Source of the DNA: Acidimicrobiaceae bacterium
GTDB taxonomy: Bacteria > Actinomycetota > Acidimicrobiia > Acidimicrobiales > Aldehydirespiratoraceae
Direction of reading: 5' to 3'
Length of the DNA: 64,000 bases
NCBI GenBank assembly: GCA_009837445.1
Contig: VXTM01000029.1
Span: 1 to 64,000, forward strand
A program made the translations under genes and the position numbers. Below the pieces are notes generated by a model. It had not been told where the DNA came from and did no database searches. It saw only the letters and a program-made list of their open reading frames with translations. Below are positions 130 to 62,380 of this stretch, piece after piece. Within the stretch, counting starts at the first letter, position 1; each line of letters begins with the position of its first letter.

Positions 130-1107
130 TCAGGGGGCGGCTGCTATGGGGGTCCAGTCGAGGATCTTGTCGGGGTCTTCGGACCGGTGGGCGAAGCCCT
201 CGACCTTTACTGCGAAGGCTCGACCTGATCCGGCTGGGGCGACATCGAGGAGGGTGTGGCGGAACGACAGCTGATCGCCCTCGAAGGCGGGGCCGGGGTG
301 GTCGCAGCCGTGCCACCCCACCACCGTGGCCATGCCCGGCAGCACCCGCGAGAGCGATGCCTGGGCCAGGCCCACAACGTGGCCCCCGTACACGAGTCGC
401 TGCGGGTAGGGGGACTCGGCCGCGTCACGGTGAACCATGGCCAGGTTGTTGGTCAGGCGGACCAGTGCGAGGGCGTTGTCCACAACGTCCCGGGCCGGAT
501 CGTCGACGGCGGTGCCTGGCTTCCAGTCGGTGCCGGGACCGAGGACGCTGAAATCCCAGCTCTCCGGCACGAGTCCCGTGTAAGACGCGAGGTCCAGCGG
601 TGTTGCCGCCCCGAGGTCATCGTTGTGGCCAGGCTGCTCGTCGTCGGCCTGGGGCAACAGCGGGGCTCGCCGGTAGGTGATGGCCAGCTCCCCGTCGGCG
701 GTGGTGACGATGTCCACCAGCACCTTGCCCCGGTGACGGCGTCCGGGACGGGGGCGGCTGTCGGCCAGGGCGACCACAGTGACGGTGGTGGCCAAGGACT
801 GCCCGATGAACACCGGCCGCAGGAACCGCAGGTCGCGATAGAAGAGATTGGCGATTACACGCCTGGTGACGGTGGTGCTGTGCCCGGTGGACAGGTGCAT
901 GACCAGCGCCGGGCTGGCCAGACGGCCGGGCTCGCCCGTCACGGCAGCACACACCGCTGGGTCCATCACCATCGGCAGCCGTTCGCCCACCATCGACTGG
1001 TAGAGGGCGGCCATTCCCTCGTCGACCACCACCGACGGCTGCCGGGGCAGGACCTGACCCACGCTGAGGTCCTCGTAGTACGGCCCGTCAAGCGGAATCA
1101 CGACCAC
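130..1107 (-). CDS. MaoC-like (hot-dog fold) hydratase/dehydratase family protein
   Basis: About 325 residues. The size and pattern suit a two-lobed MaoC-like protein: an N-terminal half opening GPYYEDLSVGQVLPRQP and a C-terminal half with LVYGGHVVGLAQASLSRVLP and FRHTLLDV. Such proteins usually hydrate enoyl-CoA esters or bind acyl-CoA in fatty acid or polyketide metabolism; the substrate here is not readable. The frame runs much further upstream, but the family pattern begins near GPYYED, so I chose GTG 1107. GTG 1101 and ATG 1161 are also possible, and no strong ribosome site separates them. The N-terminal region faces the divergent AbiEi-like gene across an AT-rich gap containing a repeat. 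Confidence 0.75.
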   Translation of the reverse strand: MVVIPLDGPYYEDLSVGQVLPRQPSVVVDEGMAALYQSMVGERLPMVMDPAVCAAVTGEPGRLASPALVMHLSTGHSTTVTRRVIANLFYRDLRFLRPVFIGQSLATTVTVVALADSRPRPGRRHRGKVLVDIVTTADGELAITYRRAPLLPQADDEQPGHNDDLGAATPLDLASYTGLVPESWDFSVLGPGTDWKPGTAVDDPARDVVDNALALVRLTNNLAMVHRDAAESPYPQRLVYGGHVVGLAQASLSRVLPGMATVVGWHGCDHPGPAFEGDQLSFRHTLLDVAPAGSGRAFAVKVEGFAHRSEDPDKILDWTPIAAAP

Positions 1108-1138
1108 GCAGACTACGGGCTGCGCAGAGGATCGTCCG

Positions 1139-1173
1139 AAATAGGTAGAGAAACCCGTCATATAGAATGGAAA
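1139..1173. repeat. Imperfect flanking repeat, copy A (upstream of AbiEi-like gene)
   Basis: Matches 2175-2209 at 28 of 35 positions by direct base-by-base comparison. The shared core is GTAGAGAAAC, one variable base, CGTC, one variable base, TATAGA. It lies in the divergent promoter region between the MaoC-like gene and the AbiEi-like gene. An AT-rich stretch with a candidate -10 (TATAAC, 1210-1215) follows before the start codon at 1236. Confidence 0.65.
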
Positions 1174-1235
1174 TCTACTCCCATTTGGAGACTGTAGATT
1201 GATATAGCATATAACTACATGAACAGCTACATTCA

Positions 1236-2201
1236 ATGCCTGTGAGACGGCGCCAGGGCGAAGACGAAGTCCTCGCACGCATGAGGCAGCAGCACGGGCT
1301 GATCGGCCGGTCCCAAGCCCTAGAGTCCGGTATGACGAGCGGCCAGATCGAGCGGCGCCTGCGAACCGGCCAATGGCGGCGGGCGGCCCGCGGCGTGTAC
1401 CAGCACGCCGCAACCGATCGGACCCGACTCTCGAGGCTGCTCGCCGTGTGCCTCGCCCACGATGCGCTCGCCAGCCACACGTCGGCCGCGGCCATCCACA
1501 ACATCGACGGATACACACTCGAACGCATCGAGGTTGTGGTGGCGGCGGGCCGCAAGCTGTCGGTCAAGGGCGCCCGGATCCACAAGTCGACCCAGATGGA
1601 TCTGGCTCGATCCACCGTGCGCATGGCCATACCCGTGACCGGCGTGGCGCGTACCGTGCTCGACTTAGCCGCAGTGGTTAACCGCGAGCGGTTGGACGAC
1701 ACCATTGACGCCGTGGTGCGGGACGGGCGGCTGCGGCTCTGGGACCTCTACCAGGTGCTCGTCTCCCATGCCCGCCGGGGGCGGAACGGCTGCGGTGCCC
1801 TCCGAGCCGCTCTGGACGCTCGCATGGGTGACGGAGGAGTGCCGCTGAGCCGATGGAGCCGGATGGTGGCGGACCTGCTGGTCGAGTCCGGGCTCGGCCA
1901 GCCCCGCTTCGAGTACCCGGTTCACGCCTTTGGCGGCGACTTCATCGCTCAGGTCGACCTGGCATACCCGGACCGCAGGCTCGCCATCGAGCTCGACAGC
2001 GTGCGCTGGCATCACAACCTTCGCAGCTTCAGCCACGACCGCCAGCGCCGCAACCGGCTGCTGCTCGCCGGCTGGGACGTGCTCAACTTCACGTGGGACG
2101 ACTACTCCCGACGTCCCAACCAGCTTTGTGCCGCCGTGGCCGCTGCCCTCGCGCCAGCCGTACCGAGTTCTACCAAATCAGTAGAGAAACACGTCGTATA
2201 G
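1236..2201 (+). CDS. AbiEi-type antitoxin-domain protein with C-terminal DUF559-like nuclease fold
   Basis: 321 residues. The N-terminus (about 10-60) has the winged-helix pattern of type IV antitoxin AbiEi relatives (GLIGRSQALESGMTSGQIER, then RGVYQ). The middle resembles the AbiEi core (SHTSAAAIHNIDG, VARTVLDLA). The C-terminus (about 215-300) has a restriction-like core, with VDLAYPDRRLAIELDS supplying the D...E-x-D motif and RNRLLLAGWDVLNFTWDD matching DUF559/Vsr-like proteins. Family members are common, often solitary, in actinobacteria; their function is mostly unproven. No AbiEii-type nucleotidyltransferase toxin lies nearby. The last codons run through a palindrome and repeat copy B. 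Start ATG 1236 chosen. Confidence 0.8.
   Translation: MPVRRRQGEDEVLARMRQQHGLIGRSQALESGMTSGQIERRLRTGQWRRAARGVYQHAATDRTRLSRLLAVCLAHDALASHTSAAAIHNIDGYTLERIEVVVAAGRKLSVKGARIHKSTQMDLARSTVRMAIPVTGVARTVLDLAAVVNRERLDDTIDAVVRDGRLRLWDLYQVLVSHARRGRNGCGALRAALDARMGDGGVPLSRWSRMVADLLVESGLGQPRFEYPVHAFGGDFIAQVDLAYPDRRLAIELDSVRWHHNLRSFSHDRQRRNRLLLAGWDVLNFTWDDYSRRPNQLCAAVAAALAPAVPSSTKSVEKHVV
2168..2185. promoter_or_regulatory. Palindrome resembling the FitAB-type operator at 41.88 kb
   Basis: TTCTACCAAATCAGTAGA. The arms TCTAC (2169-2173) and GTAGA (2181-2185) are complementary. It matches the palindrome at 41878-41895, which sits upstream of a toxin-antitoxin pair, at 17 of 18 bases. Here it lies inside the last codons of the AbiEi-like gene and touches repeat copy B. 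That it binds a regulator is inference. Confidence 0.5.
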
Positions 2202-2209
2202 AGGGAAAA
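2175..2209. repeat. Imperfect flanking repeat, copy B (3' end of AbiEi-like gene)
   Basis: Partner of 1139-1173 (28 of 35 bases identical, same orientation, 1,036 bases apart). It spans the stop codon at 2199-2201 and runs into the convergent intergenic gap before the M24-like gene. The two copies bracket the AbiEi-like gene almost exactly. Confidence 0.65.
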
Positions 2210-2236
2210 CCGTCACAGATTTAGGTTCGGCTGGCG

Positions 2237-3172
2237 TTATGGCCGTGCTGAGAGCACGACCGGGGTGCTGGCGGTGACGTGAATCACGTCGCGGCGGTTG
2301 CCGTCGGTGACGCTGAGTACCATGTCGGCTTCGAGCCGCTCGCCGAGACCGACTTGCGGGCCGATCACCGGACGCTCGAAGCCCATGCCGAGGCCCCTGA
2401 CCAGCCAGTCGTTGGCAGTCGCGGCCGCGGCCAGGTCAGCATGGGTTGCGCCGTCGCGGCAGGCGTCGGCCAGAGCTGTCGAGCCAGCGCGACGGCCGTC
2501 CACGAAGACACCGCCCACTCCCCCCTCGTACAGGTCACGGATCACTCCGATGTCGACGGAGAGCCCGTCGCCGCGACGCTCGGCCCGTATGCCCGACGAC
2601 GGGACTGTCACCCCCCGCGCGGCCAACGCCTCGATGGCCGATGCGACCGGATCAGCGCTCTCACCGGCGTTGAGCGCGGCCTCCGCCCCGACCCAGGCGG
2701 CCCGGCAAGCTCTAGCGATCGCCTCGACCTCGCCGGGCAGCTTGTGGCGACGCACGCCGGCCATCAGGTCATCGGCTGCCACCACGTCGGCGTCGGGGGC
2801 GAAATGGGCCGCGGCCCGGTCGAACGACGGCGTCAACTCGTCCACGCCGATGCGACCCGCCCCCGCCAGGCCGTCGATGGCCGCCATGGACGCGGCCATG
2901 ATGCGTGGATTCCAGGTGAGGGGGTAGAGATCGTCGAAGCTCATCGGGGGCTCGATGCCGTCGTCCCAGCTCGACAAGGCGTGGACCCGCCCGGTGGCCC
3001 CGACCACTATGCAGCCCGCCCCGAAGGGGCGGGTACCGGCCGTCCAGAGCCGGCGCATGCCGCACACGTATCCCGCATTGTCCTGGCGTCCCAGCACGAG
3101 CACGTCGACGCCGGCGGCGGTCATAGCATCCAACACCCGCTCCCGCCGGGCCGTCACCAGGTCGGTGCTCAT
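2237..3172 (-). CDS. M24 (creatinase/aminopeptidase P-like) family protein, apparently catalytically degenerate
   Basis: 311 residues. It has a creatinase-type N-domain (RRERVLDAMTAAGVDVLVL) and a shortened pita-bread C-domain. The site where active M24 enzymes have D-x-G-x(n)-D reads VDIGVIRDLYEGG. The metal-binding histidine motif HGxGL is replaced by WLVRGLGMGFERP, and the C-terminal FEP and E-x-E ligands are missing. I infer it does not bind the usual metal pair and may act as a partner or regulator. Its start overlaps the stop of the preceding intact M24 gene by 4 bases (ATGA), so the two are translationally coupled and may form a heteromer. Confidence 0.75.
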   Translation of the reverse strand: MSTDLVTARRERVLDAMTAAGVDVLVLGRQDNAGYVCGMRRLWTAGTRPFGAGCIVVGATGRVHALSSWDDGIEPPMSFDDLYPLTWNPRIMAASMAAIDGLAGAGRIGVDELTPSFDRAAAHFAPDADVVAADDLMAGVRRHKLPGEVEAIARACRAAWVGAEAALNAGESADPVASAIEALAARGVTVPSSGIRAERRGDGLSVDIGVIRDLYEGGVGGVFVDGRRAGSTALADACRDGATHADLAAAATANDWLVRGLGMGFERPVIGPQVGLGERLEADMVLSVTDGNRRDVIHVTASTPVVLSARP

Positions 3173-7382: not shown

Positions 7383-7443
7383 CCGACCGACGGGGCTTCG
7401 CCCCATTGTCGGTCGGCCGTTCCTCGCCGCCACCCCCCGGCCT
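7383..7443. repeat. Dispersed repeat, copy 2, with a long hairpin
   Basis: Positions 7389-7443 equal positions 1-55 exactly. Including upstream bases, the left part folds into a strong hairpin: CCGACCGAC (7383-7391) pairs with GTCGGTCGG (7408-7416), and GGGGC (7392-7396) with GCCCC (7400-7404), leaving a TTC loop and an ATT bulge. It lies in the 194-base gap between the luciferase-like gene and the nitroreductase. It could act as a transcript end or processing signal, but it has no U-tract. Nothing else is recognised in this gap apart from the ribosome site before 7529. Confidence 0.8.
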
Positions 7444-9543: not shown

Positions 9544-10664
9544 CCGCCAGTGGGTGGGACCAGGTCGCGGCGGACGCCCTGCAGGCGGTGGCCGCCGCCA
9601 ACCAGCTGCGCCGACCCCGGGACCTCGACAGCGGCGCACCGGACACGGTGCTGTCGAGCACCGGCCAGCCGGTCGTGTCGTTCGCTTCCAACGACTATCT
9701 CGGGCTCACCCAGCACCCAGCCGTGCGGGCCGCGGCGGGGGAAGCAATCGACGCCTACGGCGCCGGTTCGGGATCGGCTCGCCTGATCGTGGGGTCCCGC
9801 CCGGTTCACAGCCGGCTCGAGGAGCGCATCGCCGCCTGGCGGCGCACCGAGGCGGCCGTGCTGTTCACCACCGGGTACGCAGCCAATCTGGGGGTGCTCG
9901 ACACCATGGGCCGGTGGGCGTCGGTGATCTGCTCCGACGAACTCAACCACGCCTCCATCATCGACGGGTGCCGCCTGGCCCGGGCGCCGACACGCGTCTA
10001 CGCCCACTGCGACGCGGCGGCCGTCGATCGGCTGCTGGGCGATGCCGGCGGCCCCGGAATAGTTGTCAGCGACTCGGTCTTCTCCATGGACGGGGACCTC
10101 GCGCCGCTGGCCGACCTCTCCTCGGTGTGCGCCGATCACGGCGCGCTTCTCATCCTCGACGACGCCCACCTCGTGCTGGACCATCCCGAGCCGCTCCATC
10201 CGGGCTGCCGCGTGCTCAGGGTGGGCACTCTCTCCAAGGCCGTCGGATCGCTGGGCGGCTTCGTGTGCGGGCCCAGGACCTTCACCGACCTGCTCGTCAA
10301 CAAGGCCCGCTCCTACATCTTCACCACTGCGGCCGCGCCGGCCGCGGCGGCGGCTGCTATTGCCGCCATCGACGTGATCGACTCCGAGGACGGCGAAAGG
10401 CTCAAGGCGCGGCTCAGGGCCAACATCGACCGTATCCGGCCCGGCCACCGGAGCCCGATCATCCCGATCATCGTCGGCGACGAGGATCAGGCCCTGGCCG
10501 CGTCCGCAGCGCTGGCCACCGAGGGCATCCTGGTGCCCGCCATCCGGCCCCCCACCGTGCCGGTAGGTACCTCGCGGCTGCGGGTCACGGTCTCGGCCGC
10601 CCACACCGACGACGACCTGAAACGGCTCACCGAGGCCCTCCACCGCGCCGGAATCGATGCCTGA
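9540..10664 (+). CDS. bioF: 8-amino-7-oxononanoate synthase
   Basis: 374 residues. An alpha-oxoamine synthase that condenses pimeloyl-ACP or pimeloyl-CoA with L-alanine, the first committed ring-forming step of biotin synthesis. Motifs are [51 protein letters not shown] and the PLP lysine in [13 protein letters not shown] (about Lys233). The canonical DEAH is DDAH here. Length matches BioF (about 385), and paralogues such as KBL are less likely because it sits between bioA and bioD. ATGA overlap with bioA upstream and an 8-base overlap with bioD downstream show tight coupling. Confidence 0.93.
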
Positions 10665-20971: not shown

Positions 20972-21682
20972 ATGAGTTCAATCAGCGCAGGCGGCCGGGT
21001 GGTGATGCTGTCGGGGGCCAACCGGGGCATGGGAGCCGCCATCGCGACGAGGCTGGCCGCCGACGGGTACCGGCTCAGCCTCGGAGCCCGCCGGCTGGAC
21101 GCCCTGGCTCACGTCGCGCCCGACATCGGACCCGACCGGGTGCTGCTCAACTACCACGAGGCCACCGACTTCGACTCGGCTCGCGACTGGGTGCAGGCCA
21201 CCGTCGACCACTTCGGAGGCATCGACGTGCTGATCAACAACGCCGGCATCGTCGACCGCACCGGGCTGGAGAGCATGGAAGAGGCCGTGCTCGACGAGAT
21301 GTGGGCCGTGAACGTGAAGGGACCGCTGCGTCTCATCCGGCAGGCTCTACCCCATCTGCGCCGGTCCGGGTCGGGCCGGGTGGTCAACATGGCCTCGCTG
21401 TCGGCCAAGCGGGTGAAGGGCGACGTGATCGTGGGCTACTCCATGACCAAGTACGCGCTGCTGGCCCTGTCCCACGCGATCCGCCAGATCGGCTGGGACG
21501 ACGGCGTCCGGGTGACTGCCATCTGCCCCGGTCCGGTGGCCACCGACATGATGGATCCCGACGACGACACCATCACCCAGCCCGAGGACGTAGCCGATCT
21601 GGTGGCCACGGTGATCGCGCTGCCCAACACCGCGTCGGTGTCGGAGCTGCTCGTCGGCTGCCGGATGGAAGCCTGGGCCTGA
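20972..21682 (+). CDS. Short-chain dehydrogenase/reductase (SDR)
   Basis: 236 residues. The Rossmann motif MLSGANRGMGAAIATRLA (about 10-27), the NNAGIVD motif, a Ser in NMASLSAKR, and the YxxxK pair in GYSMTKYALL (Tyr156, Lys160) are intact, so it should be an active NAD(P)H-dependent oxidoreductase. The C-terminus TAICPGPVATDMMDP is typical. It is divergent from the luciferase-like gene, with 115 bases between the starts. Confidence 0.9.
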   Translation: MSSISAGGRVVMLSGANRGMGAAIATRLAADGYRLSLGARRLDALAHVAPDIGPDRVLLNYHEATDFDSARDWVQATVDHFGGIDVLINNAGIVDRTGLESMEEAVLDEMWAVNVKGPLRLIRQALPHLRRSGSGRVVNMASLSAKRVKGDVIVGYSMTKYALLALSHAIRQIGWDDGVRVTAICPGPVATDMMDPDDDTITQPEDVADLVATVIALPNTASVSELLVGCRMEAWA

Positions 21683-21715
21683 CGCGGCCCGCACCACCCG
21701 GCCCGGTTGGCCCGC

Positions 21716-22075
21716 TCAGTACAGCGGGATCTCCGGGTTGGGGATTAGGCGCTGCGCCTCAGGATCCACCGACAGGCGGAGGCACTCCAGGGCTAGGGCA
21801 CCGAGCAGGATCGGAGCGCCGTCCTCACTGAAGGAGACCAGCATCGGCGCCCTCTCGCCGTTGATGGCGATGTACGCCGGGCCGAGTTCCACGTCGACGA
21901 GACGCCCGTCCGCCAGCCGCATCCGGCTCTTCCGCTCCGGCTCGATCCCCAGGCCGCGCAACAGCCGGGCCGGCATGGCGCAGTAGAGGGATCCGGTGTC
22001 GACCGTCGCCTCGATGTCTGCCGATCGTTGGCCGTCGAGGGTGGACACCGTTACCGGCCACTTGAACGTACCCAT
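21716..22075 (-). CDS. Retropepsin-like aspartic protease-fold protein
   Basis: 119 residues. A clan AA pattern: ATVDTGSLYCAMPARLLRGL has the Asp-Thr-Gly catalytic triad, ADGRLVDVELGPAYI follows, and the hydrophobic-Gly motif ILLGALALECL is at the expected distance. Single-domain members must dimerise to form an active site. In bacteria these small proteins are poorly characterised. It has its own promoter at 22125-22152 and lies downstream of the LacI-type regulator on the same strand. It is convergent with the SDR gene. Confidence 0.75.
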   Translation of the reverse strand: MGTFKWPVTVSTLDGQRSADIEATVDTGSLYCAMPARLLRGLGIEPERKSRMRLADGRLVDVELGPAYIAINGERAPMLVSFSEDGAPILLGALALECLRLSVDPEAQRLIPNPEIPLY

Positions 22076-22124
22076 GGTCGATGCCTCCGCTCAGTCACTA
22101 TCGCTCCATATATGTCTACTGATA

Positions 22125-22152
22125 AATATAGGTATCTGGCAAACATTTTCAA
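22125..22152 (-). promoter_or_regulatory. Promoter for the retropepsin-like gene
   Basis: On the minus strand, -35 TTGAAA (22152-22147) and -10 TATATT (22130-22125) are separated by 16 bases, in an AT-rich gap between this gene and the LacI regulator gene. A GCGGAGG ribosome site lies just before ATG 22075. The match to consensus is good by eye; activity is inference. Confidence 0.55.
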
Positions 22153-22210
22153 TCTATTTTCGCCAAGGCCCTCGCGATCCATGTGTGGCGGCAACAGTAC
22201 GGGCGCCCAT

Positions 22211-23266
22211 TCACTCGATGGTGAGCGGTTCCTTACGGGGTGCGGTGGTTGTTCCTCTGACGGTGAGGCTTGCTGGGAAGAACTCGTGGCGCTTGGGGCC
22301 GTCGGCATGTTGGATGCGCTCTACGAGTCGTCGGGCCGACTGTTCCGCGATGGCCACCGTGCCCATGTCAACGGTCGTGAGACGGAAGGAATGCCATGAT
22401 GCCATCGGGATGTCGTCAAACCCCACGACTGACAGTTCGTCCGGGATCGCTACGCCCAGTTGGCGGGCAGCGTCCATGATCCCAATGGCGATGACATCGT
22501 TGCCAGCGATGATCGCGGTCGGGGCGTCGGCCCCCCGCAGGAGCCGATTGCAGGCCGCATAGCCCGCTTCATGACTGTATGACCCGTGGAGAGTGCGTTC
22601 GGGCGGAAGCGTGTCAGCCAGAACCGATTGAATCCCAAGAAGCCGGTGCGTCGTCGTCGAAGTGATCTCGGGGCCCATGGCCACTGCCACTTCGCGGTGT
22701 CCGAGATCCTGGAGGTGCTGAGCGGCGGCCCGGCCCGCTGAGAAGTTGTCGGGCTCCATGATGTCGACGTCAAGCCCCGGGACTGAGCGGACGCCCAGGA
22801 CGATAGGCACGCCCCGGGCGTGCAGGACTGCAGGCATGTCGCTGTCGAGCGTTGCCGACAGGATGAGCAACCCATCAAGGGACGCATCTAGCAGACTCTC
22901 GAGCCTGCTCACATCGGAGCGGCGATGCGGGGGGTCGACGATGAGCACCATCGAGTAGCCCGCGGCCGCGAATTCGCGATTGATGTCTGAGAGTAGCTGG
23001 GGGTAGTAGGCGTTGTCGATGTTGGGCACCATCACTCCGACGATGCCGGTGCGTTGTGATCGCAGGCTGCGGGCCGAACTGTTTGGCACGTAGCCGAGCT
23101 GTCGGGCAGCCAGCTTGACTTGCTCCCTGGTCGCCTGGCTGATCCGTGAGTCACCGCGCAGGGCGCGTGAGACCGTCGACTGGTGAACGCCCGTAGCGGC
23201 TGCCACCTCGCGGCTGGTCACGCGGCCTGACGGCCTGGCGAAGGGAGCGGAGTCGTCTAGAGCCAT
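22211..23266 (-). CDS. LacI family transcriptional regulator
   Basis: 351 residues. HTH at about 16-40 (TSREVAAATGVHQSTVSRAL), hinge helix NSSARSLRSQRTG, then a periplasmic-binding-protein-like sensor domain (VGVMVPNIDNAYYPQLLSDI, TAIIAGNDVIAIGIMDAARQ, LSVVGFDDIPMASW). This is the canonical layout of sugar- or metabolite-responsive repressors. It is divergent from the cluster starting at 23471, and the gap contains several ATGCAT-based inverted repeats, so it most likely controls that cluster and itself in response to the transported substrate. Confidence 0.92.
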   Translation of the reverse strand: MALDDSAPFARPSGRVTSREVAAATGVHQSTVSRALRGDSRISQATREQVKLAARQLGYVPNSSARSLRSQRTGIVGVMVPNIDNAYYPQLLSDINREFAAAGYSMVLIVDPPHRRSDVSRLESLLDASLDGLLILSATLDSDMPAVLHARGVPIVLGVRSVPGLDVDIMEPDNFSAGRAAAQHLQDLGHREVAVAMGPEITSTTTHRLLGIQSVLADTLPPERTLHGSYSHEAGYAACNRLLRGADAPTAIIAGNDVIAIGIMDAARQLGVAIPDELSVVGFDDIPMASWHSFRLTTVDMGTVAIAEQSARRLVERIQHADGPKRHEFFPASLTVRGTTTAPRKEPLTIE

Positions 23267-23310
23267 GATCGCTTGGCAACTCTACTCGCGTTGCATGCCG
23301 TCCTCGCTTT

Positions 23311-23459
23311 ATGCACAGAATATGCATATAACGCGCTGCCTTGCCGGACACTCGGTAGGGCACATAAGGCTTTGTCTGCATGCATAGCTATGGAATTGGG
23401 ACTTGATCGATCCACTCGAACCTGGGTAGTGTTCATGCATTCTGCGCATACGAATGCAT
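23311..23459. promoter_or_regulatory. Divergent regulatory region with ATGCAT-based operator candidates
   Basis: The gap 23267-23470 is AT-rich. It carries ATGCA-N7-TGCAT (23311-23327, overlapping the palindrome TATGCATA at 23321-23328), the palindrome TGCATGCA (23377-23384), and a perfect inverted repeat ATGCATTC-N9-GAATGCAT (23435-23442 and 23452-23459). A weak promoter TTGATC (23403-23408), 18 bases, TAGTGT (23427-23432) would start transcription inside the last repeat. These fit binding by the adjacent LacI-type protein; the exact operator is inference. Confidence 0.5.
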
Positions 23460-23470
23460 CGGAGTCCTCA

Positions 23471-24760
23471 TTGCATCTGCCTTCAACGGTTCTCGGAACG
23501 TACCTCAAGGCACCCCGGCTCGAGCACCGCGACGTCGACGTGACCGACACCGTGCGGGAAGTCTTGGCCGATATCGCTGTGGGCGGTGTCGCGGCCGTGC
23601 GCCAGTACAGCCAGCGATTCGATGGCTGGAATCCCGCCAGCTTTCGTGTGCAAGCCGCGGACATCCAGACCGCACGGTCTCGGACCGATGATGACCTGGT
23701 TGCCCAGATCGACGGCGCGCTCGAAAACATTCGAGCGTTCGCAGGCGCTCAGAGGGACTGCATCCGGCCGCTCGACTGTGAGATCCGACCCGGCGTTCGA
23801 CTTGGACATCGCGTGGTTCCGGTCCGCTCGGTCGGTTGCTACGTGCCTGGAGGCGGATATCCGCTCATCGCGTCGGCTCTGATGACCATCGCAGTGGCAC
23901 GGGTCGCGGGTGTCGAGCGTGTGGTCGCCTGTGCACCCGGCAAGCCCGATCAAGGAATCCACCCCGTCCAGTTGACCGCCATGGCGCGGGCGGGCGCTGA
24001 CGAGATCTACGCCATCGGTGGCATACAGGCGCTCGCAGCCATGGCCTACGGCGTCGAGGGTTTCGGGGCGCCGGTGGATCTGATCTGCGGCGCCGGCAAC
24101 GCGTATGTGGCCGAGGCAAAGCGACAGCTGTTCGGCCCGGTTGGAATCGATCTGCTAGCTGGACCTACCGAGATCCTGTTGATCGCAGATGACACCGCCG
24201 ATCCCACACTGCTCGCCTACGACCTGCTGGGCCAGGCCGAGCACGGCGTCAACAGCCCTGCAGTCCTTGTCACCACCAGCAACGTCATCGGAACGGCAAC
24301 GATCACCGAGGTCGACCGGATCCTGGCGGATGGGTACCCCACGGCGGACGTGGCGGGCCTGGCGTGGCGTGACTTCGGAGCCGTGGTGCTGTGCGAAACC
24401 CGCGAACACGCCGTGGAGGTGTCCGATGCCATGGCCCCTGAACACCTTGAAATCCATGCAGCCGATCCTGGATGGTGGCACGACGCGCTGACCAACTACG
24501 GCACGATCTTCCTGGGCGCCGATGCCACCGTCGCCTACAGCGACAAGGCAATCGGCACCAATCACGTTCTGCCGACGAGGGGCGCGGCCCGGTACACGAG
24601 CGGGCTCTGGGTAGGGAGCTTCCTCAAGACGCCCACCTACCAGGTAATCGAGGATCCGGCCGCGGCGGGACCGGTGGCAGAGGCGACAGCAGCCATCAGC
24701 GAAGCCGAAGGGATGTTCGGCCATGCCCTAACTGCCACGGTCCGCATGGACCGCCTCTAG
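23471..24760 (+). CDS. Histidinol dehydrogenase family enzyme, HpsN-like (possible sulfopropanediol or related polyol dehydrogenase)
   Basis: 429 residues from TTG 23471, which has GGAG at 23461-23464; ATG 23435 is the alternative. All HisD active-site residues appear at near-identical numbering: Gln255 and His258 in GQAEHG, Glu324-His325 in APEHLE, Asp358 in SDKAIGTNH and His418 near the C-terminus. It is therefore a zinc-, NAD-dependent dehydrogenase oxidising an alcohol to a carboxylate. The genomic setting (LacI regulator, thiamine enzyme, ABC importer, no other his genes) and the DKAIGTNHVLPT motif suggest the catabolic HpsN-type branch rather than histidine synthesis. The substrate is inferred, not shown. 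Confidence 0.82.
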   Translation: MHLPSTVLGTYLKAPRLEHRDVDVTDTVREVLADIAVGGVAAVRQYSQRFDGWNPASFRVQAADIQTARSRTDDDLVAQIDGALENIRAFAGAQRDCIRPLDCEIRPGVRLGHRVVPVRSVGCYVPGGGYPLIASALMTIAVARVAGVERVVACAPGKPDQGIHPVQLTAMARAGADEIYAIGGIQALAAMAYGVEGFGAPVDLICGAGNAYVAEAKRQLFGPVGIDLLAGPTEILLIADDTADPTLLAYDLLGQAEHGVNSPAVLVTTSNVIGTATITEVDRILADGYPTADVAGLAWRDFGAVVLCETREHAVEVSDAMAPEHLEIHAADPGWWHDALTNYGTIFLGADATVAYSDKAIGTNHVLPTRGAARYTSGLWVGSFLKTPTYQVIEDPAAAGPVAEATAAISEAEGMFGHALTATVRMDRL

Positions 24761-24849
24761 CCGTCAGGCCGTGCACGCCACCCCGATCGTCGTAGTTGAG
24801 CCACACCCACCGGTCCGCAGACGACCTACCCCAACGAAAGGACACAACC

Positions 24850-26658
24850 ATGGGCTACACCACTGGCCAGATCATCGCCCGAGCACTCAGGTGCTACGGA
24901 GCGCCCTACGTGACCGGGCTCCCGGGGCACGGAAACTGGAGCCTGCTGGACGCGTTCCTCGACGAGGGCTGCGAGTTGCCGTTCGTGCAGGTCTTCCACG
25001 AGCAGTCGGCCGTTCACATCGCCGATGCCCACTATCGGGTCACGGGTCAGCCCATCGCAGCCACCACATCGATCGGGCCCGGCACGACCAACACCGTGAT
25101 CGGCCTCGCCACCGCGTACGCGGACTCCACGTCACTGCTGCTGCTCACGGGATCAACGGCCACCCACATGCGCAACCACGGCGTGATGCAGGAACTCGAC
25201 CGATTCCACTCGCCTGACTTCCCCGCGGTGTCGGCTGCGGTCACCAAGCGCAACTTCGAGATGGTCAAGGCCATCGAGGCGCCGTTCCTGATGCATCGGG
25301 CCTTCAACGCGATGCTCTCAGGACGGCCGGGGCCGGTTCACATCGAGATCCCGCTCGATGTGCAGGTAGAGCAGGCAGACGTCGACGTGGCCGATCTGAG
25401 GTGTCGGCTCCCAGTAGGTCGGCCGCGGGCCGACAGCGACGCCGTTGAAGCCGCGGTGCGACTGCTGGTCTCGGCTGAACGGCCCTGCATAGTCGCCGGA
25501 GGTGGAGCCGTGATGTCCGACGCCGCTCCAGAGCTGAAGTCCTTGGTGGAGCGGCTCAGCATCCCGGTCGTCTACACCTGGAACGGCAAGGGGGCGCTCC
25601 CCGACGACCATCCCCTCAACGCGGGCACCGCGGGCTGGCCCGGCTCCCTTCCCGGCAACACGATCGCCGCGAATGCCGATGTCGTGCTCTCGCTCGGGTG
25701 CAAGTTCACGGACTGGTCCGCGTCGTCTTGGCGTCGTGGAGCGACGTTCTCGCTGCCGCCGGGCAGGCTCGTTCAAGTCGACATCGATGCCGTCGAGATC
25801 GGAAAGAACTACCCGGCAGAAGTCGGTGTCGTCGCGGATGTGAAGTCCGCCCTGAGCGACATGCTGGCCGTCCTGTCACCAGAGGACGACCGCCGTGCCG
25901 CCCGTCGACGTTCGGCCTACCTGGACGAACTTGCCGGACTCAAGAAGCGCTGGGTGGAGGTGCTCGGCCCCCGACGCGACCACGCCGGATCTCCCATGAC
26001 GATGCTGCGAGTGCTGCATGAGTTGCGCCAGGTGCTACCCAGAGAAGGCATCGTGACCGTCGGATCAGGGCATCCGCAGTCCTCCACGAAGCAAGCCTTT
26101 CCGATCTATGAGCCCCGCACCCATATAACCTCCGGCAGCTTCTCCCCAATGGGGTTCGCGGTGCCAGCCGCGATCGGAGCCAAGCTGGCGAGACCCGACA
26201 CACCGGTGGTGTGCATCGTCGGCGACGGCGACTTCATGATGACGATGCAGGAACTGGCGATCTGCGCCATGCGGGACCTGCCCGTGGTGTTCCTGATCCT
26301 CAACAACAGGGGCTTCATCTCGATCCGGGACGGCCAGAACGGACTGATGACGCGCCAGATCGGATCCGAGTTCAACGACCTGGCCGGCAACGAGTACTCC
26401 GTCGACTTCGCAGCCATGGCGCGAACCTTCGGTTTCGAGCAGGCCGCCAGGGTTACCGACCCCACCGACCTGGCCGGAGCGCTGCAGCGAGCCCTCGACT
26501 CCAACGAGCCGGCCGTCGTCGAGACCCTGATATCTCGCGACGCCTCCATCGCGGCAGCCGAGGTAGTCGGGTGGTGGGACTTCCCGCTCCTTCCCACAGC
26601 ACCGACTGAGGTGCGCGTCGACTACGAGATCGGACTCCGCGAGGAGCAGCACCTGTGA
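24850..26658 (+). CDS. Thiamine diphosphate-dependent enzyme of the acetolactate synthase/Xsc type
   Basis: 602 residues from ATG 24850 (AAAGGA upstream). Three-domain layout: PYR domain with the catalytic Glu in VFHEQSAVHIADAHYRVTG and SIGPGTTNTVIGLATAYADS; a central domain from about 195 (PCIVAGGGAVMSDAAPELK); and a PP domain with the ThDP/Mg motif VCIVGDGDFMMTMQELA and ILNNRG. This size and order fit acetolactate synthase, sulfoacetaldehyde acetyltransferase (Xsc) and related carboligases or lyases; which one cannot be settled from motifs. It lies between the dehydrogenase and an importer, and so probably acts on a downstream catabolite. Confidence 0.82.
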   Translation: MGYTTGQIIARALRCYGAPYVTGLPGHGNWSLLDAFLDEGCELPFVQVFHEQSAVHIADAHYRVTGQPIAATTSIGPGTTNTVIGLATAYADSTSLLLLTGSTATHMRNHGVMQELDRFHSPDFPAVSAAVTKRNFEMVKAIEAPFLMHRAFNAMLSGRPGPVHIEIPLDVQVEQADVDVADLRCRLPVGRPRADSDAVEAAVRLLVSAERPCIVAGGGAVMSDAAPELKSLVERLSIPVVYTWNGKGALPDDHPLNAGTAGWPGSLPGNTIAANADVVLSLGCKFTDWSASSWRRGATFSLPPGRLVQVDIDAVEIGKNYPAEVGVVADVKSALSDMLAVLSPEDDRRAARRRSAYLDELAGLKKRWVEVLGPRRDHAGSPMTMLRVLHELRQVLPREGIVTVGSGHPQSSTKQAFPIYEPRTHITSGSFSPMGFAVPAAIGAKLARPDTPVVCIVGDGDFMMTMQELAICAMRDLPVVFLILNNRGFISIRDGQNGLMTRQIGSEFNDLAGNEYSVDFAAMARTFGFEQAARVTDPTDLAGALQRALDSNEPAVVETLISRDASIAAAEVVGWWDFPLLPTAPTEVRVDYEIGLREEQHL

Positions 26659-26662
26659 GTCC

Positions 26663-28757: not shown

Positions 28758-28775
28758 CAAGCAAGGAGACTTTCC

Positions 28776-30254: not shown

Positions 30255-30285
30255 TCTAGATGAGCCTCGCGAGGTGCTCCCCGGT

Positions 30286-31832: not shown

Positions 31833-31886
31833 TTCAGTCTCGGGACCAGCGATGGATGCAAGCTGCGGCCGATCAGCTGGTGCCAA

Positions 31887-36375: not shown

Positions 36376-37653
36376 ATGGCGAAGGGGGCCATGAGCGGCC
36401 TGCTGCGCGCCGAGGACTGGGTCTCGGTGTGGATGGGCGCCGCCATCATCGCTCTGGTCGTGGTAGGCGTTCGACCGGAGAAGGCCGGCCTGTCCTGCAG
36501 CGACGGCATCGGCGGGCTGTTCTCCGGCAGCAGCCTGGCAACGACGCTGGCAGTCGGCGCCGCGCTGCTGGTGCTGTGCCTCACCGGAGTCCGGCTCATG
36601 GACGGCTCGGTCCGCGGCTTCGCTCCGGGCTTCGCCGGGCTGTTCGTGCTGGCCTGGGCGGCACGGGCCGTGTCCTGCGACCCCGCCCTGAGCGACCGCG
36701 GCGTCAACTACGCCATCACCTCGCTGGCGCTGGGGCTGTTCATCTCCAACGTGATCGGGGTGCCGGGCTGGCTCCGCGCCGCCATGCGCACCGAGTACTA
36801 CATCAAGGCCGGCCTGGTGATCCTGGGCTCGAGCGTGCTGTTCAGCCGGGTGCTTGAGGCCGGCATGTACGGCATGGTGCAGGCCGCCGCGGTCATCGCA
36901 GTGATCTGGTACCTGTGCTTCTGGATCGCCCGCAAGCTCAGGGTGGACGAGGAGTTCTCAGCCATGATGGCCACCGCGGTGTCGATCTGCGGGGTGTCGG
37001 CCGCCATCGCGGCCTGCGGGGCCATCGCCGGGGACCGCAAGAAGCTCTCGTACGTGACCTCGCTGGTGCTGGTGGTCGCCGCTCCGATGATGATCCTGAT
37101 GCCCCTGGCGGTGGACTGGCTCGGGCTCTCGGACATCGTCGGCGGAGCCTGGATCGGCGGCACTATCGACACCACCGGAGCGGTGGTGGTGGCCGGCGAG
37201 AGCATCGGCGACTCGGCCACCAACGCGGCCACCATCGTCAAGCTCTCCCAGAACGCCCTGCTGGGCGTGGCCGCCTTCGGCCTGTCGGTCTGGTGGACGG
37301 TGCGGGGCGGCGCCTCGGGGGCGGAGACGCCCGAGGTGTCGGCGGCCGTGATCTGGGAGCGGTTCCCGAAGTTCGTGCTCGGCTTCCTGGCGACCTCGTT
37401 GCTGTTCTCCTTCGGGCTCAGCGACGCGCTGGTGGACGCCACCTCGGGAGTGCTGAAGGGCATGAGGACGTGGCTGTTCGCGCTGGCGTTCGTGTGCATC
37501 GGCCTGGAGACCCGGCTGCGTGACCTGCTGTCGATGCAGGGCGGCCGGCCCGCGGTGGCGTTCGTGGTCGCCCAGGCCGCCAACGTAGCGTGGACGCTGC
37601 TGCTGGCCTGGCTGCTGTTCGGCGGCTCGATCTTCGCGGTACCCGACCTGTAG
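36376..37653 (+). CDS. Putative sulfate/sulfite exporter family (YeiH/PSE-like) membrane protein
   Basis: 425 residues, about ten hydrophobic helices. The family pattern is clear: YYIKAGLVILGSSVLFSRVL, ARKLRVDEEFSAMMATAVSI, CGVSAAIAACGAIAGDRKK and GAWIGGTIDTTGAVVVAGES. The family (YeiH; the PSE family that includes SuyZ from sulfolactate-degrading Paracoccus) is thought to export sulfate or sulfite, though few members are tested. A role in removing sulfite made from an organosulfonate would suit the 23-31 kb cluster, but the genes are 5 kb apart. Confidence 0.83.
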   Translation: MAKGAMSGLLRAEDWVSVWMGAAIIALVVVGVRPEKAGLSCSDGIGGLFSGSSLATTLAVGAALLVLCLTGVRLMDGSVRGFAPGFAGLFVLAWAARAVSCDPALSDRGVNYAITSLALGLFISNVIGVPGWLRAAMRTEYYIKAGLVILGSSVLFSRVLEAGMYGMVQAAAVIAVIWYLCFWIARKLRVDEEFSAMMATAVSICGVSAAIAACGAIAGDRKKLSYVTSLVLVVAAPMMILMPLAVDWLGLSDIVGGAWIGGTIDTTGAVVVAGESIGDSATNAATIVKLSQNALLGVAAFGLSVWWTVRGGASGAETPEVSAAVIWERFPKFVLGFLATSLLFSFGLSDALVDATSGVLKGMRTWLFALAFVCIGLETRLRDLLSMQGGRPAVAFVVAQAANVAWTLLLAWLLFGGSIFAVPDL

Positions 37654-37657
37654 CGGG

Positions 37658-39052
37658 CTAGAGCATCGGGTACTTGGCCTTGTCGGGGAGGCCGGAACGG
37701 GCGGTGATGGCCTCGCCAGCGGCCTGGCAGCGGGCGTAGAAGGTGTCCTCGTCGATGGTGATCATGCGGCCGGCGTCCACCACCTTGGCCCCGTCCACGA
37801 ACACGGTGTGCACCCCCCGGCCGTCGGCCGACCACACCAGCTGGTTCATCACGTTGAGCAGGGGGCGCCACTCGGGCCGGTCGGTGTCGTGCAGCACCAC
37901 GTCGGCCTTCTTGCCTGCTTCCAGCGAGCCGATCTCGTCGGACATGAGCATGGTGCGGGCCCCGCCGAGGGTGGCCATCTCGTATGCCTTCTCGGCCGGG
38001 AACATCTGGGGGTCCATGCGGGCGTCCTTGAACAGGCCGGCCACCAGGTACGTGGCCCGGTGCATGTCGGCGTAGTTGGATGCGTTGTTGCCGTCGATGC
38101 CAATGCTCACGTTGATGCCCCGCATCACCATCTCGGGGATCTTGCCGATCTGGGTGACGCCGTAGCTGACCTTGAGCGCTGTGGTGGGACAGTGCTCGAC
38201 CGAGCACCCGGCTTCGGCAATCACGTCGATCTCGTTGTCGTCGACCTGCACGCAGTGGGTCACCGAGGTGTCGGCGCCGAGCACGCCCAGCTCGCCCAGG
38301 TGGATCATGGGTCGCTGCCCGAACTCGGCGATGAAGGTGTCGGGGTCGAGCTTGGCCGGGCTCATGTGGAAGTTGAGGCCCACGCCGTGGTGGTCGGCGG
38401 CCTCCCGGGCGGCCCGCCACAGCGGATCCGAGCAGGTGGTGTGGCCCACCACCATCGACCACGCCTCCAGCCGCCCGCCGGCGGTGCCGCGGTGGCGCTC
38501 GATGGTGTCGTTGATGTTGGCGATGGCCGTGTCGGTGCTCTGGCGGTAGACGTCGGGCTCTGGCGGCAGGTCCCACACCCATTTGCCGATGCGGCCCCGG
38601 ATGCCCGCCTCCACGAGGCCGTCCATCACCTCGTCGGTGAACCGGATGGTGCCCGCCTCCAGGAAGGCGGTGGTGCCCGACTTGAGCATCTCGACCGCGG
38701 CCAGCTGGGCCGACAGGCGCTCCTCCTCGGCGGTGTACACCGAGTAGAGGGGGCACAGCCACATGAACACGTTCTCCTCGAAGGGCGTGTCGTCGGGCAC
38801 GTAGCCCCGGGTGAGGGGCTCACCGGTGATGTGGATGTGGGTGTTGATCAGGCCGGGGGTGACCACGAACCGGTCACCGCCCACGGTCTCGGCCGCCTCG
38901 TAGGCCGCCTCCAGGTCCGACGCCTTGCCCACGGCCACGATCTCGTTGCCCCTGATGGCCACCGCGCCGTGGCGGATAATGTCGCGGGTCGGGTTCATGG
39001 TCACCACGTACCAGCCCTTGATCAGGGTGTCGATGCGCTCCCGCTCGCTCAT
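37658..39052 (-). CDS. Amidohydrolase family protein (TRZ/ATZ, cytosine deaminase-like)
   Basis: 464 residues. The metal-binding HxH is in TPGLINTHIHITGEPLTRGY. Further ligands are likely in LNFHMSPAKL and VEHCPTTALK, with the aspartate in SIGIDGNNASNYADM; the C-terminal composite domain has IGSLEAGKKADVVL. These deaminate or dehalogenate ring or amidine substrates. It is a paralogue of the gene at 48192-49607, with similar opening, HxH and closing motifs. It is convergent with the exporter gene (4 bases between the stops), and follows the O-methyltransferase-like gene on the same strand by 33 bases. Confidence 0.87.
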   Translation of the reverse strand: MSERERIDTLIKGWYVVTMNPTRDIIRHGAVAIRGNEIVAVGKASDLEAAYEAAETVGGDRFVVTPGLINTHIHITGEPLTRGYVPDDTPFEENVFMWLCPLYSVYTAEEERLSAQLAAVEMLKSGTTAFLEAGTIRFTDEVMDGLVEAGIRGRIGKWVWDLPPEPDVYRQSTDTAIANINDTIERHRGTAGGRLEAWSMVVGHTTCSDPLWRAAREAADHHGVGLNFHMSPAKLDPDTFIAEFGQRPMIHLGELGVLGADTSVTHCVQVDDNEIDVIAEAGCSVEHCPTTALKVSYGVTQIGKIPEMVMRGINVSIGIDGNNASNYADMHRATYLVAGLFKDARMDPQMFPAEKAYEMATLGGARTMLMSDEIGSLEAGKKADVVLHDTDRPEWRPLLNVMNQLVWSADGRGVHTVFVDGAKVVDAGRMITIDEDTFYARCQAAGEAITARSGLPDKAKYPML

Positions 39053-41989: not shown

Positions 41990-43225
41990 ATGACCGACTT
42001 GCACATCGATCCGGAGCGGCTTTGGTCGCGGCTGATGGACATGGCCGAGGTGGGGGCCACCCCCGCCGGGGGATCGAACCGGCAGGCGCTGTCGGACGAC
42101 GACAGGGCCGGACGGGAGCTGTTTATCGGATGGGCTGAGCAAGCCGGCTGCTCGATCGAGTTGGACGGGGTGGGCAACCTGTTCGCCCGGCGGCCGGGCA
42201 CGGACCTCGATGCCCTTCCGGTGGTGCTTGGCAGCCATCTCGACACCCAGCCCACCGGCGGGCGGTTCGACGGCGTGTACGGCGTGCTGGGCGGGCTTGA
42301 GGTGGTCGAGGCGCTCAACGACCACGCCGTTGAGACCCGAGCCCCAGTGGAGGTGGCGGTGTGGACCAACGAGGAGGGTTCCCGCTTCCCGGTGTCGATG
42401 ATGGGCTCCGCGGTGTGGGCCGGTGTGCTGCCGCTGGACGAGGTTCGGGCCATCGGTGACCGCTCGGGCATCACCGTGGGCGACGAGCTCGACCGCCTCG
42501 GCTGGGCCGGCGCCGCCGCGTTCGGCAAGCCGCTGGGCGCGTACCTGGAACTGCATATTGAGCAGGGGCCGATCCTGGAGGCCAGCGGCTCATCGATCGG
42601 GGTGGTCACCGGGGTGCAGGGGATCCGCTGGTTCAGGGTAACCATCGAAGGGTTCCCGGCCCACGCCGGCACCACGCCCATGGACCGCCGCCACGACCCC
42701 GCCCGCCCGGTGGCCGACGCCCTGAGCGGGATCTACGAGATGGCCGCCGCCCACGCCCCGCAGGTGCGGCTGACCCCGGCGATGTTCTCTTCCGAGCCGG
42801 TGTCGTCCAACACCGTTCCGGCCCATATCACGTTCACCATCGACATGCGCCACCCCGACGCCGAGATCCTGGAGAACCTGGACGCGGCCCTGCGGAGCCT
42901 GGTGGCCGATGCCGCCGACGCCCACGGCTGCGGGCACCGGATCGAGGTCATCAACGACTGCGCTCCGGTCGTGTTCGATCCGAGGTGCGTCGACGCGGTG
43001 GAGGCAGCCGCCCGACGCTGCGGCTTCGCCCACGAGCGTATCGGCTCGGGCGCAGGCCATGACGCCTGCCATGTGGCCCTAAAGGCACCGGCGGGGATGA
43101 TCTTCGTGCCCTGCCAGGGCGGGCTGTCGCACAACGAGGCCGAGTCGATCGAGCCCGACGCCGCCGGCCGGGGTGCCGAGGTCCTGCTACACGCCGCCCT
43201 GGACCTGGCCGGCACGGTCGGCTGA
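41990..43225 (+). CDS. M20-family amidase (N-carbamoyl-L-amino-acid hydrolase/allantoate amidohydrolase type)
   Basis: 411 residues from ATG 41990. Zinc-ligand motifs run in order: VVLGSHLDTQPTGGRFDGVY (His, Asp), WTNEEGSRFPVSM (Glu-Glu), YLELHIEQGPILEASG (His-Glu) and MIFVPCQGGLSHNEAE (C-terminal His). The dimerisation lid has RWFRVTIEGFPAHAGTTPMD. These hydrolyse N-carbamoyl amino acids, ureido acids or allantoate, releasing CO2 and ammonia. With the amidohydrolases and acetamidase nearby it suggests use of C-N compounds. Confidence 0.9.
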   Translation: MTDLHIDPERLWSRLMDMAEVGATPAGGSNRQALSDDDRAGRELFIGWAEQAGCSIELDGVGNLFARRPGTDLDALPVVLGSHLDTQPTGGRFDGVYGVLGGLEVVEALNDHAVETRAPVEVAVWTNEEGSRFPVSMMGSAVWAGVLPLDEVRAIGDRSGITVGDELDRLGWAGAAAFGKPLGAYLELHIEQGPILEASGSSIGVVTGVQGIRWFRVTIEGFPAHAGTTPMDRRHDPARPVADALSGIYEMAAAHAPQVRLTPAMFSSEPVSSNTVPAHITFTIDMRHPDAEILENLDAALRSLVADAADAHGCGHRIEVINDCAPVVFDPRCVDAVEAAARRCGFAHERIGSGAGHDACHVALKAPAGMIFVPCQGGLSHNEAESIEPDAAGRGAEVLLHAALDLAGTVG

Positions 43226-43232
43226 GACACCC

Positions 43233-44279
43233 TCAGGGGCGTAGCAGGATCTTTCCGAAGAAGTCGCTCTCCAGCATCTTCTGCTGGGCCGCGGCCGCCT
43301 CGTCCAGCGGGAACTCCGAGTCGATCACCGCAGTGAACCGGCCCGCGGCGACTTCCGTGCAGAAGGTTTCCCACAGCGGCCCCATCTCGTCGGGCCGGTA
43401 CGGGTCCGAACCCAGGATCCGCAGCCCGTTGTGGAACAGGTGGCCCAGCGAACCGATGGTGGCGGTGTCGCCGGAGGCGTTTCCGCAGTTGACCAGCCGG
43501 CCCCCGATGGCCAGCGAGAACATCGACTGGGTGAACAGGGCGGTGCCCACATGGTCGAACACCATGTCCACGCCCCGGCCCTCGGTCACCCCCATGGCCC
43601 AGCCGGTCACGTCGCCGGTGCGGTTGTTGAGCACGTGGTCGGCGCCGAGCTCAAGGGCCAGCTCGCACTTGGCGTCGGTACCGGCGGTGGCCAACACGGT
43701 GGCGCCCGCGTGCTTGGCCAGCTGGATGCCGGCCACCGACACGCCCGACCCGGCGGCGTGGACCATCACCGTCTCGCCCTCTGAGAGGCCGCCCGTGTTG
43801 AACAGGGCATGCCCGGCCGTGAGCCACACCGTGGGGAACGTGGCCGCCTGCTCCAGCGACACGCCGTCCGGCACGCGGTAGCAGTGCGAGGCCGGGACCA
43901 GGCACTTCTCGGCGTACCCGCCGTCGAGCGTCGCTCCCAGGATGCCGAGCTCGCCGTAGAGGTCGCCGAGGCCCGCATGCTTCGAGTTCTCGGGCACTCC
44001 GGCCATGGACGGGTCCGCCACCACCCTGTCGCCGGGCTTCCACTGGGTGACGGCCGCGCCGACCTCAGACACCACGCCGGCGATGTCCATGCCGGCGATG
44101 TGGGGGAACGTGAACCCCGGCATGTAGTACCAGCCGTTGCGCTGGAGCAGGTCGAGCCGGTTGAGCGCGGTGGCCGCTACGTCCAGCACCACGTCACTAT
44201 CGCCGGGAACCGGGTCGTCAACGTCGGTGTACTCCAGCACCTCGGGCCCTCCCGAGGCGCGGTACATCATCGCTTTCAT
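43233..44279 (-). CDS. Zinc-type MDR alcohol dehydrogenase/quinone reductase family protein
   Basis: 348 residues. GroES-like N-domain (YTDVDDPVPGDSDVVLDVAA, FPHIAGMDIAGVVSEVG) and Rossmann domain (VMVHAAGSGVSVAGIQLAKH, ATAGTDAKCELALELGADH). The catalytic zinc Cys at the GHD/GxE position is missing, which places it with quinone oxidoreductase-like members using NADPH without zinc. Substrate unknown. It is convergent with the M20 amidase, only 7 bases between stops. Confidence 0.85.
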   Translation of the reverse strand: MKAMMYRASGGPEVLEYTDVDDPVPGDSDVVLDVAATALNRLDLLQRNGWYYMPGFTFPHIAGMDIAGVVSEVGAAVTQWKPGDRVVADPSMAGVPENSKHAGLGDLYGELGILGATLDGGYAEKCLVPASHCYRVPDGVSLEQAATFPTVWLTAGHALFNTGGLSEGETVMVHAAGSGVSVAGIQLAKHAGATVLATAGTDAKCELALELGADHVLNNRTGDVTGWAMGVTEGRGVDMVFDHVGTALFTQSMFSLAIGGRLVNCGNASGDTATIGSLGHLFHNGLRILGSDPYRPDEMGPLWETFCTEVAAGRFTAVIDSEFPLDEAAAAQQKMLESDFFGKILLRP

Positions 44280-56973: not shown

Positions 56974-57057
56974 GCCGCGACCCTACCGGAGCACACAGAA
57001 CCCAGTCCAAACCCGCAGAGCAAGGTCGCCCGAAGTACGCTCCGCTAGCGTCAGCGT

Positions 57058-59737: not shown

Positions 59738-59981
59738 CGTTACCCCTCCTCGACGGCGGCTCGAAGAGCAGTCATGTCATCACGACACCCACCTTCTGTG
59801 GATTGAGTCAGGCGCCCCACTCTTCGGCGCTGTAACAGCTGCAGTGACACCATCACATGGCATTCTCCAGGTTCATATTTTCTCAGGCATGTCATCGTGC
59901 TTACGGCCTACAGTTCTACGAGACTCTCAGAATGGTGGTGTCGATAGATCTATCGGCATCACAGAGGATTCTAACCTAGAA

Positions 59982-61450: not shown

Positions 61451-61561
61451 CCGTTCCAACGCCGGGGGGATCTTGCCGAAACCCCCGGTACCAGTCCAGC
61501 CACATAAGGGGTGGAGGGCGTCGCCATGGTTCCCTTCGGGGCTGGACAGGCGTTGGAACGG
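61451..61561 (+). ncRNA. Candidate structured RNA, three-way junction, upstream of the DUF2510 gene
   Basis: An outer stem of 13 bases pairs CCGTTCCAACGCC (61451-61463) with GGCGTTGGAACGG (61549-61561) perfectly. Inside lie two further stems: CCGGGGG (61462-61468, sharing two bases with the outer stem) with CCCCCGG (61482-61488), and GTCCAGCC (61494-61501) with GGCTGGAC (61540-61547). The latter encloses AAGGG (61506-61510) with CCCTT (61532-61536). This gives a compact three-way junction 37 bases before ATG 61599. No known riboswitch or RNA family is recognised. Confidence 0.6.
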
Positions 61562-61598
61562 CAAACCGACACCCAACCCCGCACCGGAGGGAGCCACC

Positions 61599-62348: not shown

Positions 62349-62380
62349 GCACTACCCGAGTAGCGGAGCACCGTGAGTTC

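Follow-up and report, generated by a model that had tools for sequence, protein, structure and literature searches.

Within the 64,000-nucleotide stretch of an Acidimicrobiaceae genome that we analysed (the window), a gene for an AbiEi-like protein with a nuclease domain lies between two direct copies of a palindromic repeat of about 53 bp. We consider it probable that the gene moves together with its two repeats as a small mobile unit, in which the repeats are the cognate element of the protein, an arrangement like that of a REPtron but with an unrelated nuclease. Gene and repeats were inserted into a host operon as a unit, elements of this kind are dispersed and differ in presence and absence between related genomes, element type is paired with gene lineage, and the protein has a predicted nuclease fold with conserved residues. 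Gene and palindrome are associated; the protein would be the agent that mobilises them.

A sequence-only reading of this DNA had reported a pair of 35-base repeats, and we confirmed it. Positions 1139-1173 and 2175-2209 are identical at 28 of 35 bases in register on the same strand, 1,036 bases apart, with one copy 5' of the gene and the other across its stop codon (2199-2201), as that reading had placed them. The local-alignment score between the two flanks was 38, against a maximum of 27 in dinucleotide shuffles (0 of 5000 as high), and control pairings, which matched flanks from different loci, scored no higher than 32. Judged from dispersed copies in a related genome, G009, the repeat unit, which we call type A, is longer than 35 bases and measures about 53 bp (Table 1). 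In the G009 copies the outer arms are close to CCGAAATC...GATTTCGG. The two window copies have diverged from each other and have inverted outer arms; the inverted pairing is weak and the naive stem score is low on both sides of the gene. When up to 3 mismatches were allowed, the core pattern of type A was absent elsewhere in the window's own genome.

Table 1. Features of the window that bear on the insertion and on type-A dispersal.
Feature	Position	Strand	Basis
MaoC-like host gene; directly after the Creatinase_N gene in six relatives	133..1119	-	operon comparison
Upstream type-A copy, ~53-bp palindromic element; left end of insertion	~1136..1189	+	arms CCGAAAT / ATTTGG; right end inferred
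A+T-rich leader from upstream repeat to start codon; presumably promoter	1190..1235	+	sequence reading
AbiEi-like module (residues ~1-198) and predicted Vsr/EDxHD-type nuclease domain (~202-309), 321 aa	1236..2201	+	Pfam, predicted fold
Downstream ~53-bp copy; right end of insertion, overlaps stop codon	~2173..2225	+	repeat comparison
Creatinase_N-domain (M24-like) host gene, partner of MaoC gene in interrupted operon	2237..3172	-	operon comparison
Repeat-free site; G009 has solo type-A element (C14:192370-192417)	9545..9555	.	collinear alignment
Repeat-free site; G009 has 93-bp insertion with type-A element (C14:174900-174952)	37651..37658	.	collinear alignment
Repeat-free site; G009 carries type-C palindrome	43215..43235	.	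collinear alignment

Eight genomes of the genus, the window's own included, hold the host operon (locus A) with a strong match. In six of them (G001, G006, G007, G010, G012 and G014) the gene and repeats are absent and a short repeat-free spacer separates the Creatinase_N and MaoC-like genes. The window and G009 carry the AbiEi-nuclease gene with both repeats between the host genes; the G009 orthologue is 78% identical to the window protein and is likewise flanked by two type-A repeats. Since the operon is uninterrupted in six of eight genomes and the G009 orthologue has repeats of the same type, the gene and its repeats act together as a single insertion. The sequence-only reading had proposed that the repeats could be the recombination footprint of a mobile cassette. 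The uninterrupted operon agrees with a mobile cassette, but the idea of a footprint left in the target did not hold: a search of the relatives for empty sites holding one repeat found none among the six, so the repeats came with the insertion. With all six empty sites repeat-free, a target-site duplication made when the gene inserted is rejected as the origin of the repeats. The other possibility raised by the sequence-only reading, that the protein itself may bind the two repeats, would fit these observations.

We searched 16 genomes of the genus for the type-A repeat. G009 gave 17 matches, and after the copies and a syntenic stretch had been read it holds 19 type-A copies with sharp ends, of which 17 are solo and two flank the gene. 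G013, which lacks the orthologous gene, gave four weak matches (E 0.003-0.07, best 0.0028), three of them near full length; in the 13 remaining genomes without an orthologue there was no match at E <= 0.1. In the window's genome, G000, the two copies at the gene are the only ones; one of the search hits there is a chance match of 18 bases, and the upstream copy has diverged too far to be picked up in this way. The type-A system may be at rest in this genome. The sequence-only reading had named a wide occurrence of the repeats outside the gene as a refutation of its proposals, and in G009 they do occur widely. However, since the type is almost confined to genomes that hold the gene, this dispersal suggests that the repeat family is paired with the gene and is not a coincidence. 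Contig 14 of G009 aligns collinearly with the window, the long pieces being 89-94% identical, and sites at which G009 carries an element and the window does not are listed in Table 1. Two window stretches, ~21066-31936 (~10.9 kb) and 57018-63587 (6.5 kb), have no counterpart on that contig and may be strain-specific islands.

Forty further members of the gene family were fetched with their flanks (41 in all, several of them orthologues at one locus). A direct repeat that beat every control pairing was present at 13 of the 41. At 16 the same palindrome type was recognised on both sides of the gene and at 9 on one side; a further 2 had a strong match on one flank and a weak one on the other, and 14 had none that we recognised. 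The consensus sequences behind these labels were built partly from the same flanks, so that at some loci one side matches by construction and the opposite side tests the label; no second-best type scores above 27. The label T53 of L059 depends on a weak match (score 27, next 21), and behind label C of L042 and L044 one of the two sides is weak. In the window's genome a paralogue on contig 41 is bracketed by two identical 53-bp copies of T53, a sequence unlike type A. The same genome contains a 5'-truncated family member (L003 / L066, G000:C42:47326-47913) with a TB palindrome directly downstream, and six solo TB copies elsewhere.

Five of the seven palindrome types searched are dispersed (T53, TB, A, TD and TG33, the type of G033). 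The dispersed types are mostly intergenic and are polymorphic in presence and absence between relatives. We found that solo copies numbered 12, 4 and 0 in the gene-bearing genomes against 0-5 elsewhere for T53, 6, 15 and 13 against 0-5 for TB, 16, 9 and 19 against 0-3 (plus 12 in G008) for TD, 0, 1, 3 and 0 against 0-2 for T40, and 0 and 17 against 0-3 for type A. When gene-bearing genomes were permuted within these five types, solo copies were enriched where the cognate gene occurs (p = 2e-4); the counts were merged by hand at E <= 1e-3, with type A taken from the reading of the G009 copies and G013 entered with 3 of its four weak matches, and the 16 genomes are not fully independent because they are related. 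T53 and TB are present in low number in some genomes without the gene, and G002, whose gene is labelled T53, has zero solo copies at E <= 1e-3. T40 shows little dispersal and scarcely any preference for the four genomes that bear its gene. The prediction that its dispersal would be confined to G005, G010, G011 and G013 largely failed, with few copies in every genome.

The same pattern was observed in another family of the order, all genomes compared being of this one order. In G033 the gene L069 (35-36% identical) is flanked by a different kind of palindrome, which occurs at 22 places, two of them at the gene; six of seven comparison genomes have none and the seventh has one weak match. The type of L065 in G016 was found at the gene only, without solo copies, and in none of 8 other genomes. 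Named records that fit the protein family are metagenome-assembled genomes of Acidimicrobiaceae/Acidimicrobiia (10 loci), and one distant plasmid relative is from Tsukamurella (28% identity).

The palindromes could instead be an unrelated MITE whose enzyme was not found, with AbiEi-DUF559 genes riding between two copies. Mobilisation by the protein is something we infer, and our transposase search covered the Y1 family only. In addition, TD elements abound in G008, with 12 solo copies (L227, L235, L241, L247 and L252 among them), and a TD gene was not detected there; gene loss, an assembly gap or movement by a relative of the gene are possible reasons for these orphan elements. What keeps this explanation alive is that every palindrome type was found beside a family gene, so that types without such a gene may have been missed and a search bias is possible. 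However, a MITE with its own enzyme does not account for different types going with different lineages of one gene family, in another bacterial family as well, nor for the enrichment of solo copies where the matching lineage is present. We therefore hold it to be very unlikely.

To relate element type to gene lineage we used a maximum-likelihood tree that covered 34 of the 41 proteins and left out the fragments L066, L068, L070, L072 and L074 and the distant L067 and L071. Each type with two or more rows occupies one side of a branch on this tree. The 11 labels together need 10 changes, which is the minimum, while shuffled labels need 23.7 on average and were as low in 0 of 200 shuffles. Orthology alone would explain part of this agreement. 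Locus B, recognised by common flanking genes, houses two gene lineages, whose palindromes are TB in the first and T40 in the second. The sister group of the T40 lineage consists of type-E genes from a different locus (support 97/96). Locus C has two groups, with types C and T53; on the protein tree they are separate clades, and support for the C group is only moderate (91/67). Two lineages with two types at one locus indicate that element type tracks gene lineage more than locus. When L106, L107 and L112 of type C are compared with the T53 consensus, the outer arms differ and a central TGGGcactggacACCCA stretch is common to both, as if arms and core had evolved or recombined separately.

The elements are ~41-54 bp long with long outer arms. 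Arm covariation was clearly above shuffles in two of the five types examined, TG33 (12 double changes against a shuffle mean of 3.6, 0 of 500 as many) and TB (20 against 12.9, 7 of 500 as many), and not in T53, TA and TD. The naive stem score exceeded the 99% control level in 11 of 33 gene 3' flanks (p = 1e-4), and the 5' flanks showed no group excess (7 of 33, p = 0.30). Tandem direct copies are spaced by 60 bp in TD and by 72 bp in the T53 elements of G009. From 272 palindrome matches, 176 distinct copies with enough flank were examined for target-site duplication; at least 6 bases were shared between the 30-base flanks in 50 of them (28.4%) against 23.0% in the control, a weak excess. Suggestive single sites include TGATGC, duplicated at a stop/start overlap in G000 and G004 and imperfectly in G013 in comparison with G014, and AGCCGGCC/AGCGGCC in G009 in comparison with the window. 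What is apparently one orthologous intergenic site holds an element at L111 (G013) and at L135, L137, L139, L174 and L177, the type being either T53 or TB, which suggests an insertion hot spot. L131 has a TB element where its relative L074 has a terminator-like hairpin, with complementary bases around it, and some other TB copies are similar.

Solo copies were intergenic in 120 of 136 callable cases, with 37 in convergent, 70 in tandem and 13 in divergent intervals; the reference intergenic bases were 2191 convergent, 8043 tandem and 4883 divergent. These counts come from a rough gene caller, which missed the MaoC and M24 genes at the window start, and 15 further copies lay too near an end. 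The convergent excess and divergent deficit suggest that the elements favour gene ends, and speak against operators. It is quite unlikely, in our judgement, that an AbiEi-type repressor uses the palindromes as operators, looping DNA between the two at its own gene and controlling a regulon elsewhere, with the nuclease as an accessory. The AbiEi-like half of the protein, the dyad symmetry of the elements and the pairing of protein lineage with site type are what such a regulator would lead one to expect. However, the placement of the copies, the tandem dimers and trimers, the differing presence of the element at orthologous sites and the conservation of the nuclease residues argue against it.

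The window protein is predicted to combine an AbiEi-like module with a Vsr/EDxHD-type nuclease. AbiEi_4 scores 31.1 bits in it, above the Pfam cut-off of 25, while MTES_1575 (32.8 bits, cut-off 38.2) and DUF559 (17.5 bits, cut-off 20.6) remain below theirs; AbiEi_4 and MTES_1575 both match at E <= 0.01 in each of 32 aligned family members, and an NCBIfam search gave no match. A passage of PMC3710099 describes MTES_1575 as a Vsr-type nuclease domain in giant defence-like proteins. The AlphaFold model of the window protein is good (pLDDT 89.2). In this model residues 4-197 resemble the Streptococcus AbiEi antitoxin structure 6y8q (Z 13.4, rmsd 3.2, 183 aligned), and residues 205-309 resemble the catalytic domain of the homing endonuclease I-Bth0305I, 3r3p (Z 12.2, rmsd 2.4, 95 aligned), followed by a Neisseria endonuclease-like protein, 3hrl (Z 11.4), and Vsr, 1cw0 (Z 10.6, rmsd 2.1, 99 aligned). 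By sequence too 3r3p is the best solved relative, though weak (E 0.002). D241, E252, H259, D268 and R271 are invariant across 32 family sequences and would make up the catalytic set. In profile alignments 3hrl has an equal partner for D241, E252 and H259, whereas I-Bth0305I has one for E252 only and lacks a counterpart to D241 and H259.

The AbiEi fold is shared with the antitoxins of type IV toxin-antitoxin systems, and PADLOC AbiEi models match the window protein (best E 1.5e-21), as would be expected of an ordinary solitary AbiEi/DUF559 defence or toxin-antitoxin passenger whose repeats are due to chance or are terminator-like. However, the window protein differs from AbiEi antitoxins in carrying its own nuclease domain. 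The three neighbouring genes tested gave no match to an AbiEii toxin or to any defence gene, unlike AbiE systems with their AbiEii nucleotidyltransferase; the genes that adjoin it are the MaoC-like and Creatinase_N/M24 genes. Moreover, the repeats beat all shuffles, and a passenger leaves the dispersed, lineage-matched repeats unexplained. We find this explanation barely credible.

The likeness to I-Bth0305I raises the question of homing, in which the solo palindromes would be cleavage targets that are old or were spread otherwise, the gene would copy itself into a cut palindrome, and the flanking copies would be homology arms. The closest solved nuclease is a homing endonuclease and, according to a passage of PMC3943268, I-Bth0305I is reported to act as a dimer on a long target of nearly 60 bp. 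Homing would also suit the flanking copies that are identical, such as T53 in G000, and locus B, which is common to two gene lineages. However, the six empty sites at locus A are palindrome-free, which indicates that the insertion there was not into a solo copy, and homing alone does not predict more solo copies where the gene is present. In further contrast to EDxHD homing endonucleases, the window gene was not seen in an intron or intein, its protein is fused to an AbiEi-like module, and it is flanked by a repeat that is dispersed in a relative. Homing is thus unlikely, though it retains some weight.

In the mobile-unit reading, the AbiEi-like half would probably bind the ~50-bp dyad-symmetric element as a dimer, comparable to the dimer reported for I-Bth0305I. 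The Vsr/EDxHD-type domain would nick or cut DNA at or near the element, and new copies of the element could thereby arise at other chromosomal sites, for the most part intergenic ones. Where two copies flank the gene, the gene would travel along. Binding, dimer formation, cutting and copying are putative steps, and the protein is the putative agent.

This arrangement resembles the REP-RAYT or TnpA_REP systems (REPtrons) in its short palindromic intergenic elements dispersed in the genome, its single enzyme gene flanked by cognate elements, its link of element type to enzyme lineage and its tandem clusters. REPtrons, however, use an HUH/Y1 enzyme, whereas the window protein has a predicted Vsr-type fold. 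A Y1/RAYT transposase gene (PF01797) was found in none of the 16 genus genomes, while the control search gave a signal in 5 of 14, and so this is not a classical REPtron. The GTAG/CGTC foot of REPtron elements is absent at the consensus foot of the five types examined here; GTAG occurs inside types A and B, not at the hairpin foot. In BIMEs, REPs are combined in inverse orientation (as a part of PMC8266576 has it), whereas the tandem copies here are direct. Since the anatomy is REPtron-like and the defining HUH enzyme is absent, we regard the unit as a variant of the known REPtron kind.

In IS200/IS605 elements, as in the window, two imperfect palindromes in direct orientation bracket a gene. 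Those elements differ in having a Y1 transposase, the gene class missing from the genus genomes searched, where the nuclease here is of predicted Vsr type.

We give an even chance to the broader proposition that REP-like palindromes arose a second time without HUH, through AbiEi/DUF559 nucleases with lineage-specific ~50-bp palindromes, with actinobacterial spread and a new Vsr/EDxHD-type transposition chemistry. In the open-licence literature, no paper title among the matches listed joined the AbiEi/DUF559 protein family to dispersed palindromic repeats. If the proposition is true, there is a second, unrelated enzymatic route by which tiny palindromes spread in bacterial genomes, and a gene family now annotated as antitoxin, defence or unknown gains a function. 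It would also predict that natural nucleases recognising very long (~50 bp) and varied sequences are numerous, with cognate sites that can be read from the genome. Proof that the enzyme moves the repeats would justify calling the system "categorically new". Close relatives display the elements, the genes and the empty sites, which makes a direct test feasible.

The window also contains a repeat family separate from the gene-linked palindromes. Three exact copies of a 33-base G+C-rich sequence, with 0 expected by chance, lie at 22-54, 71-103 and 7410-7442, two of them close together at the contig start.
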